Below are positions 12,923 through 16,493 of a DNA stretch of 40,503 nucleotides, in pieces. The stretch's first letter is position 1. The number at the start of each line of letters is the position of its first letter. Source of the DNA: Myxococcota bacterium (lineage in GTDB: Bacteria; Myxococcota; JAJVIH01). The position numbers and the translations under genes were made by a program. The notes under the pieces were generated by a model that was given only the letters and a program-made list of their open reading frames with translations, did no database searches and was not told the DNA's origin. The DNA lies in contig JAJVIH010000002.1 of NCBI GenBank assembly GCA_022072125.1, positions 1 to 40,503 of the forward strand, in the 5' to 3' direction.

Positions 12923-14110
12923 TTATTTCCGGCCCCGGCGCAGTTCTTCCAGTTCGTCAAATTCATTGGCGTAGGTGTCTTCATCCAGATCGGCGTGCTC
13001 ATCCGGACCAATGCGCAGAATCTCGTAACTCGCCTTCCTGGTTTTTACATTGATGCGCAGAATCGCCGCCATGCCCTGGTTGGTCGAACCATCGAGCATT
13101 TTCCAGGGAAAGGAATCGCCCTGCGACGGATTCAGGAACACCTGCGGCGCCCAGACCCCCGGCGCCACGGGATTGCCAATCAGGTCGGAAGCGCGGCCGC
13201 CAGCCTCGATGATATGCCCATGGACGCCAAAATTGATCTTCCCCTTGGTCCCCTTGATGAACTCCGTGAGTTTGTAATCACCCACGTTGGACTTGTCGTG
13301 GATCACATCAATGCCGGTGGGTTTGGTCATTTTGGGCGGTCCATGGGTCAGGAACAGCAGGGGCGAATTGGCCAGCGGCGGCAATTTCTCCATGGCGTCC
13401 ACATCGGCGTCCTTATATAGGCAGGATGCGGTGTTGCGCGTGAACTGGCGGTCGTAATAGCCGGGCAGGCTCATGATGTCCGCGCCATCGCCGTCGAAGA
13501 AGCGGATCATGTTCATATTGAAGACGTTGTGATACTTCCATGTGATGGTGCGCACGGCGCGGTTGAACTGCCCGCGTGAGTCGTTATTTCCCATGATGAT
13601 GAAGACGGGCGTCCCCGTGCGGGCGAAGGTGAGCAGGTTTTTCTCCATGGCGTCTTCGCCGTTGGCGATATCCCCGCCCACGATGATGGCGTCCACGTTT
13701 TTCGACTTCCACCACTGGATGAATTTCTTGAGGTTGTAGATGGTCCCCGGCGCAGCCTCCTTCAAGGTGGAAACCACACCATAGGCCACTTCAGTCTTGC
13801 CCTTCTGGTTCTCTTCCACCATGCGGTGGCCGGAGATGACAAAACGGCGTCCGGCCACCGTCACCCGCGCCGGCGGATCCAGGGTGTCGAACGGCCCCAC
13901 GCAATTGCTTTCCCGCTGTTTCTGGTAGTTCAGCCAGGCATCCCAGTTTTCCGGAGCTGCGCCGGAGGCCGCCGTGGCGGGCGCGGCGATGACGGCGGGA
14001 CTCGCCGGACCAGACAGCGCGGGGGCGGCGGACAGACAGCAGACCGCGGACAGGCATGCCGCCGCGGATTTCACCGCCAGAAATGGGGGCTTGTAGCGCG
14101 CTGCCGTCAT
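12923..14110 (-). CDS. Secreted calcineurin-like metallophosphoesterase, paralog 1
   Basis: A 395-residue protein with an N-terminal signal (residues about 12-34) and an Ala/Pro linker. Metallophosphoesterase motifs are GGD (145-147), GNND (174-177), THGPPK (254-259) and HGHIIEAGG (296-304). The canonical first motif D-x-H, expected just after the first beta strand, is replaced: the strand reads GVVSTLKEAAP. The GHxH motif also lacks its last His. Metal binding may therefore be altered, or the enzyme belongs to a distinct subfamily. It is clearly homologous along its whole length to the next gene upstream, 51 bp away, so this is a tandem duplication. Substrate unknown. Confidence 0.83.
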   Translation of the reverse strand: MTAARYKPPFLAVKSAAACLSAVCCLSAAPALSGPASPAVIAAPATAASGAAPENWDAWLNYQKQRESNCVGPFDTLDPPARVTVAGRRFVISGHRMVEENQKGKTEVAYGVVSTLKEAAPGTIYNLKKFIQWWKSKNVDAIIVGGDIANGEDAMEKNLLTFARTGTPVFIIMGNNDSRGQFNRAVRTITWKYHNVFNMNMIRFFDGDGADIMSLPGYYDRQFTRNTASCLYKDADVDAMEKLPPLANSPLLFLTHGPPKMTKPTGIDVIHDKSNVGDYKLTEFIKGTKGKINFGVHGHIIEAGGRASDLIGNPVAPGVWAPQVFLNPSQGDSFPWKMLDGSTNQGMAAILRINVKTRKASYEILRIGPDEHADLDEDTYANEFDELEELRRGRK

Positions 14111-14161: not shown

Positions 14162-15322
14162 TTATTGTGCGCCGTCTTTTTTCAAAGGCTTCACGGGAGC
14201 CTTGGCCTTCGGCTTATCGAGGTCCATCAGTTCCTTCATGGCCTCATCTTCCCAGGTGCCCTTCGCCTCGCCGGATTTCCGCTCGCCTGGTTTGCTCTTC
14301 ATGATGCGATAGGACGCCTTGCCTTCCTTCGTGATCTTGACCAGCGCAGCCATACCCACCGACTCCTCGCCGGAGTTGAGCTTCCAAAACACGCTCGAAG
14401 CCGATCCGGGGTTCAGATACATCTCGGAGACCAGCACATCCTCCTTGATCAGCTTGTTGGAGATATCGGTGGCTCGCCCTCCCGCCTCCACGATATGGCC
14501 GAAAATTCCGAGGGGTATCTTGCTCTTTTTGATGACATCGGTCATCAGCGGATCGCCGACGTTGCCGGCGTTGAAGGCGTAGTCAATCGCCTCCTTGCCA
14601 TTCATTTTGGGCGGGCCATGGGACAACAGGATCACCGGGTTGTCCGACTCCTTGACCAGGGCGGCCACGCTGTCCACATCGGCCTTGTTGTACACACAGG
14701 TGTTGCGGCTGGCGGTGAACCGCTCGTCGTAATACCCCGGAAGGGTGACGATGTCGTAGATCGCGCCATCCACCCGGCGGATCAGGTTCATGTTGAAAAC
14801 ATTTCTATATTTGCCCTTGTTGAGCCGGGCGATGGCGTTGTTGAAGGCCCCGCGTTCGTCGTTGTTGCCCATGATCACGAAGACCGGCCAACCCGGCTCC
14901 GCCAGCACGGTCAACACCTTCTCAACCGTGATCTCTTCCAGACTCATGTCGCCGCCCATGATCACCGCGGTGGCTCCCTCCTTTTTCCACCACTCCACGT
15001 AGGACTGAAGGTTGGCGATGGTGTCCGGATGGCCATCCTTTGTGGTGGAGACGACGCCGATCAAATCGTGGTCTTTTGTCTCCTTGTTGAGTTGGATCAT
15101 CCGGGAGCCGGTGAGTTTATAGCTGTAGGTAGCCGTTTTGACCTCCAGCGGGTTTTCAATGGTCCGCACCGGATTGATACACCGCAGGCTTTGGGAACGT
15201 TCAAACTCTTCCCAGTTCTTCAGGTTTTTGCCGGCGGAAGATGGCAAATCCACCTGCGCCAGGGCGGGAAGCCCAAGCACGGCCAGCAGCATCAGGACGA
15301 GCAGAAGGGTGCGAAACTTCAT
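14162..15322 (-). CDS. Secreted calcineurin-like metallophosphoesterase, paralog 2
   Basis: A 386-residue protein with a signal peptide ending near LPALAQ. It matches the downstream gene throughout: NWEEFERSQSLRC/NWDAWLNYQKQRESNC, GVVSTTKDGH/GVVSTLKEAA, GGD (123-125), GNND (152-155), a HGPPKM motif and GHIVEAGGRA. As in its paralog, the first-motif Asp and His are missing from the usual place, although a nearby Asp-Gly-His (residues 96-98) could supply ligands. The C-terminal tail is Lys/Pro/Ala-rich. It is probably the first gene of the two-gene unit, with its promoter in the AT-rich island upstream. Substrate unknown. Confidence 0.83.
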   Translation of the reverse strand: MKFRTLLLVLMLLAVLGLPALAQVDLPSSAGKNLKNWEEFERSQSLRCINPVRTIENPLEVKTATYSYKLTGSRMIQLNKETKDHDLIGVVSTTKDGHPDTIANLQSYVEWWKKEGATAVIMGGDMSLEEITVEKVLTVLAEPGWPVFVIMGNNDERGAFNNAIARLNKGKYRNVFNMNLIRRVDGAIYDIVTLPGYYDERFTASRNTCVYNKADVDSVAALVKESDNPVILLSHGPPKMNGKEAIDYAFNAGNVGDPLMTDVIKKSKIPLGIFGHIVEAGGRATDISNKLIKEDVLVSEMYLNPGSASSVFWKLNSGEESVGMAALVKITKEGKASYRIMKSKPGERKSGEAKGTWEDEAMKELMDLDKPKAKAPVKPLKKDGAQ

Positions 15323-15722
15323 GATTCTTCCGGTGGATTGGAGGGCCGGATTGTCCGGACCTATATCTGCTACCAGAAGACCTGTGGAGGGTCAATCCAG
15401 GATTTTTTATTTTAAGAAAATATACTATGTATAGTATACTATACATATTAGTTAAAAACTATTAATAAAAATATATTATATAGACATATTATTTTTAACT
15501 AACATTTGTTAGTATGGATATTAAGTATTAATTTTTAACTATTAGTATTTATATTTCAACTTAAATATATTATACTTTTGTAATCCATTTTCATTTTCTA
15601 TTTTGCGAATCATCTCTCTTTCCAACGTTCTTTCACCCGCTGGATTCTCTCTTCCGCTTTGGCGGCGCTTGCGGAGCGCACCGCAGCCGCATTCCCTGAC
15701 AAGATGCCTCCCGGGAATGGCT
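15323..15722. other. 400-bp intergenic region with a ~200-bp AT-rich, dyad-rich island
   Basis: Bases 15401 to about 15607 are almost pure A+T, in sharp contrast to the surrounding GC-rich DNA. Contents: a perfect 22-bp palindrome at 15426-15447 (TATGTATAGTATACTATACATA has 22 bases, centred on GTATAC); a 7-bp dyad with a 2-base loop at 15498-15513 (ACTAACA/TGTTAGT); a direct repeat ATTTTTAACTA at 15491-15501 and 15531-15541, with its inverted copy TAGTTAAAAA at 15449-15458. I see no coding sequence I would support. It lies upstream of the phosphoesterase pair and downstream of the TPR lipoprotein gene. It could be a promoter/operator complex, a nucleoid-protein target or a small mobile-element remnant. 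Confidence 0.85.
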
Positions 15723-16493
15723 TCAATCAAACCCTGTCCGCACGCGGGCCTGCTGATTGCCCATCATCCGCTCGATCATATCGTGGGTAATCATGGGAAC
15801 GCCGCGATCCCGGAGCGTGCCCTTCATCGGACCGCTGGCGTTGAGCAGCTGCTCCGCCAAGTCGGCGGCAGGAGTTCCAGCCTCCTGCTCCGCCAACTCC
15901 TTGAGGATGCGCATCCCTTCCTCTTCGTATTTTCCACCGCGAGACAACAGCAGACGGCCCTCCATGAAGCGGAAATCGGGATTGCCGGGCTCTTCCTTCA
16001 GCAAAATCCGGTATTCCTTGAGGGCCCGTTCTTCCATGCCCAGGACCGCGTAGCAGGCGGCCAGGGTCACTCGCACATCCAACGCGGCAGGGCGATCTTT
16101 CAGGGCTTCTTCCAGGTAAATCACCGCGTCCGCATAGCGTTTGACCTGGTAAAACAGCATGCCGATATTGCGCCGGACCTGGAAATCCTTGGGACGGGCG
16201 TCAAAGGCGGCGCGGTTGGCGTCAATCATGCGGACCAAATCCGCCGCGCCCGGATCAGCCGCGTTGATGGAAGTGGCGCTATCCAGGTTGACGGACGCCG
16301 CCGTGGCGGGCGCGGCCTCCACCACACCGGCGGGGGTGACGGGAACATCCGGCTGGTTGCGCCCGGCCGGAGTGGTGCTGGCCAGCATGGCCGCCTGGGG
16401 ATTCGCTGGGCCGCTGAGGTGGGCGTCCGGGCCGCAGCCCTCCAGCGCGGAAATCAGCGCCAGACAGATGATCGCGCCTGCCTTGCCTTGCAT
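15723..16493 (-). CDS. TPR-containing lipoprotein
   Basis: A 256-residue predicted lipoprotein: signal ending in ALEGC (Cys20), then an Ala/Pro/Thr-rich linker to about residue 85, then three TPR-like helical pairs (for example DFQVRRNIGMLFYQVKRYADA, and LDVRVTLAACYAVLGMEERA). The C-terminal tail (residues about 195-256) is charged and helical. TPR lipoproteins usually scaffold envelope complexes; no partner can be named. The linker shares the strings LSGPA-x-P and AAPATAAS with the N-terminal linker of phosphoesterase paralog 1, across the AT-rich island. The 162 bp downstream of PaaI (16494-16655) hold only a weak 6-bp dyad at 16627-16646. Confidence 0.8.
   Translation of the reverse strand: MQGKAGAIICLALISALEGCGPDAHLSGPANPQAAMLASTTPAGRNQPDVPVTPAGVVEAAPATAASVNLDSATSINAADPGAADLVRMIDANRAAFDARPKDFQVRRNIGMLFYQVKRYADAVIYLEEALKDRPAALDVRVTLAACYAVLGMEERALKEYRILLKEEPGNPDFRFMEGRLLLSRGGKYEEEGMRILKELAEQEAGTPAADLAEQLLNASGPMKGTLRDRGVPMITHDMIERMMGNQQARVRTGFD

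Follow-up and report, generated by a model that had tools for sequence, protein, structure and literature searches.

Bacterial genes are often preceded by DNA whose composition or symmetry takes part in their control. Known systems of this kind include the UP elements and other A+T-rich DNA upstream of sigma-70 promoters, the palindromic operators of dimeric regulators of the TetR, MarR, GntR or Fur type, and the targets of the xenogeneic silencers H-NS, MucR and Lsr2. A locus that shares features with each of them was found in a stretch of 40,503 nucleotides from a Myxococcota bacterium, which we call here the window.

An A+T island in the gap before a phosphoesterase pair

The maximal-scoring A+T segment of the window runs from 15402 to 15604 (203 bp, 86.7% A+T), in surroundings of 62% GC where, the island excepted, every 100-bp stretch has at most 55% A+T. 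A preliminary description, made on the letters of the DNA, had reported here about 200 bp of almost pure A+T; the island exists, but its A+T content of 86–87% falls short of that wording. To place it against its own genome we used a sample of 836 kb, composed of 40 stretches and the window, in which the island was the strongest A+T segment (score 107, compared to 54.5 for the runner-up). The 100-bp stretch of lowest duplex stability in the same sample also lies inside the island (0.955 kcal/mol per step, against a mean of 1.583). The island is non-coding, with stops throughout all six frames, and the flanking genes have a normal GC-rich composition, as had been stated from the beginning.

All the genes around the island are on the minus strand. 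A gene for a TPR protein (15723–16493, recognised by Pfam TPR models) ends at 15723, 119 bp before the island, and a gene for a calcineurin-like phosphoesterase, hereafter phosphoesterase 1 (14162–15322), starts at 15322; the island is, therefore, in the gap on the 5' side of the phosphoesterase pair. This gap separates two same-strand genes, measures 400 bp and contains the island entirely, at a shorter distance from the downstream gene, whose start codon is 80 bp away. The pair is a true duplication, as previously claimed: phosphoesterase 1, which has a signal-peptide-like N terminus by eye, and its tandem paralogue phosphoesterase 2 (12923–14110, minus strand) both match the Pfam model PF00149 (Metallophos) and are 41% identical in a local alignment. 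Past phosphoesterase 2, the minus strand continues with a sugar transferase gene and an O-antigen ligase gene.

Palindrome, repeats and sequence signals

The perfect 22-bp palindrome reported in the preliminary description, TATGTATAGTATACTATACATA, is found at 15426–15447, with its centre 114 bp before the phosphoesterase 1 start codon. A palindrome of this kind was reached by 4 of 1000 dinucleotide-preserving shuffles of the island (p = 0.004), the imperfect 28-bp version gave p = 0.007, and just five perfect palindromes of at least 22 bp occur in the 836-kb sample. Thus, it has the dyad symmetry, above chance, and the intergenic position upstream of a gene start that are seen in operators, and it is a candidate operator for a dimeric regulator. 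Operators usually, though not obligatorily, recur at co-regulated genes; this one is a single site in the genome, even when up to 3 mismatches are allowed across its inner 18 bp, and, because no second copy exists, no regulon backs the palindrome.

The other repeats fared differently. The tight 7-bp dyad with a 2-base loop (ACTAACA-TT-TGTTAGT, 15498–15513) is present as described, but the number of dyads in the island is unremarkable (p = 0.12 vs shuffles). The 10-mer TTTTTAACTA occurs inverted at 15449–15458 (minus strand) and direct on the plus strand at about 15492 and 15532, but such repeats are expected from the composition: three copies gave p = 0.06, not clearly above chance, and the longest direct and the longest inverted repeat of the island were both within chance (p = 0.12 and 0.18, respectively, over 1000 dinucleotide shuffles). 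A shuffle simulation had been proposed as a means to refute the dyads and, with these p values, it discards most of them and spares the main palindrome. The island also folds better than its shuffles, as DNA or as RNA (z about −3), probably in large part because of the 22-bp palindrome.

Searches for known binding sites in the island gave values expected from its composition. The best match to the UP element consensus was 12/14, which 66% of the shuffles equalled or exceeded, no match to the IHF consensus was above chance, the best DnaA box (6/8) was equalled by all shuffles, and the Fur consensus was at chance, the palindrome not fitting a Fur box. Elsewhere in the genome, a Fur-box-like A+T palindrome, GATAATGATTATCATTATC, is located directly upstream of a FeoB-like gene (L090:4837–4870). 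The promoter-like matches at the island are putative; at its gene-proximal edge TTGACC (15393–15398, minus strand) may be a −35 element, with no good −10 at standard spacing.

Several other classes were considered and rejected. An RNA gene or riboswitch finds zero Rfam matches even at E 1, and neither a tRNA nor an intrinsic terminator was found in the island. A genome repeat family does not agree with the single copy, and a viral origin does not agree with a palindrome that is missing from viral contigs and with the lack of a significant phage relative. For a replication origin, the island has no DnaA box, and parS-like sites are elsewhere, on contigs C1 and C7. These are perfect palindromes with TGTTTCACGTGAAACA or its core (L077:17824–17857, L077:18343–18368 and L101:17920–17939) that look like ParB-binding sites, and the replication origin may lie not far from 17.8 kb on contig C1.

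Copies, relatives and comparable islands

When the island was compared by nucleotide search with its own genome and with related ones, as the preliminary description had suggested, it matched only itself in the former and nothing in 146 genomes of the phylum, the nearest genomes compared being of the same phylum only. The whole intergenic gap gave one 35-bp GC-rich match, in one genome and outside the island. The named homologues of the phosphoesterase come for the most part from organisms once classed as Deltaproteobacteria, Myxococcota among them, and in a few cases from archaea, including Woesearchaeota; it is on this distribution that we call the genome Myxococcota-like. Upstream of these homologues, named genomes with GC of at least 57% showed no A+T peak above 58%; in two A+T-richer genomes (L050 and L051) the corresponding region peaks at 71–77% A+T, in keeping with the overall genome composition. 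A literature search returned nothing on this lineage.

Within the genome, a run of 44 A/T positions with at most 3 mismatches occurs at three sites: this island, C6:52971 and C1:214417. The other two are the strongest short A+T islands after this one, and each precedes the likely start codon of a gene by about 130 bp, a sigma factor gene for the C6 island and a type IV pilin gene for the C1 island (starts and names assigned by eye). The common upstream position of the three islands is what most favours a role in control, from a small number of cases (n = 3), and in a tandem gene arrangement any gap is upstream of some gene. Of two broader A+T-rich stretches, which look acquired, one (L085:17399–17633) is located upstream of a gene judged by eye to be Fic-like and the other (L100:19000–19900) near a protein-kinase-like reading frame. 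At L017:4204–6306, three type IV pilin-like genes stand in tandem, their N termini nearly identical.

A candidate control region and its alternatives

With modest confidence, we favour the view that the island acts from upstream of the promoter as a control region for the two minus-strand phosphoesterase genes and carries a palindromic operator; possibly, its control extends to the exopolysaccharide-type genes further along the same strand. Its A+T-rich DNA would provide an easily melted, flexible stretch able to bind HU-type proteins and the alpha subunit of RNA polymerase, and the 22-bp palindrome would be bound by a dimeric transcription regulator. Position, composition, uniqueness and a palindrome above chance are observed, whereas a promoter role, a regulator and the sense in which it would act are putative. 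This view is supported by the position in the gap, by the palindrome above chance, by the pilin and sigma factor islands, by the lowest stability in the sample and by the HU/IHF-family genes of the genome; against it are the UP-like matches, which are at composition level, a length above that of a typical UP element, the single copy of the palindrome, and the lack of a counterpart at the homologue loci of related GC-rich genomes. Of the three ideas put forward in the preliminary description, a control region is the best supported, given that the island occupies a 5' gap, with a start codon 80 bp away, and that the two comparable islands are similarly placed; its function is putative.

The main rival, which we consider unlikely, is a remnant of foreign A+T-rich DNA left in the gap, such as a decayed insertion, a phage or plasmid piece, or a small non-autonomous element. 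The composition is indeed far from that of the host, the related loci have no counterpart, and AATCCA at 15394 and 15582, the only repeat flanking the island when target-site duplications were searched at its edges, could be one. However, edge windows of this size share a 6-mer in about one third of trials by our own estimate, so the AATCCA pair is within chance. Moreover, the island is single copy, no terminal inverted repeats extend past GGATT/AATCC (at most 5 bp), the nine neighbouring proteins scanned contain zero recombinase domains, and phage and plasmid searches gave scattered A+T-rich matches only, none significant (the lowest E of the matches listed was about 1e-3). The idea of a mobile-element remnant, also proposed previously, is not supported. 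Mutational drift, by which an unconstrained gap would have turned A+T-rich with a palindrome arising by chance, would explain that most island repeats are at chance level; it is decidedly unlikely, since other gaps of the genome are not A+T-rich to the same degree and the palindrome has p = 0.004.

A site where a nucleoid silencer binds and nucleates would suit extreme A+T DNA upstream of envelope-type genes, in a genome with three HU/IHF-family genes. This third earlier idea is weakened, because no gene of the H-NS, MucR or Lsr2 families was detected in the genome (95.8% complete), and the same searches matched the positive controls in reference genomes; with the IHF consensus match also within chance, we judge it quite improbable. 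Finally, the island might be a chimeric insertion made during metagenome assembly: the assembly is a draft of 78 contigs, like its metagenome-assembled relatives, and the island is unique and compositionally alien. Nevertheless, it is in the middle of a contig and falls exactly between two genes that are themselves clean; two chimeric joins only 200 bp apart would be uncommon, which makes an artefact barely credible.

If the island is a control region, it represents an extreme case of easily melted DNA upstream of a promoter, in a genome that is GC-rich and where the known A+T-binding silencers were not detected, and it would offer a handle for finding the protein that does the silencers' job in this lineage; if it is not, it is ordinary intergenic DNA. 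In a bolder form, which we regard as very improbable, a GC-rich Myxococcota-like lineage in which no known silencer was detected would have here a regulatory A+T platform of its own, unusually long, and a new A+T-binding protein would act on it as well as on the islands of the pilin and sigma factor genes.

Compared to the described systems, the island resembles the targets of H-NS, MucR and Lsr2 in its A+T richness within GC-rich DNA and its closeness to envelope-type genes, and differs from them since none of these families was detected in the genome. With the operators of TetR-, MarR-, GntR- or Fur-type regulators it shares a perfect palindrome in an intergenic candidate control region, whereas its palindrome has one genome copy and no Fur box match. 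To the UP elements and promoter-upstream regions of sigma-70 promoters it is similar in having A+T-rich DNA of low duplex stability shortly upstream of a gene, but it extends over about 200 bp instead of about 20 bp, its match to the UP consensus is at composition-matched chance and its promoter is putative. The island is, thus, real and extreme in composition, but it belongs to a familiar kind of feature and is unusual only in its strength.
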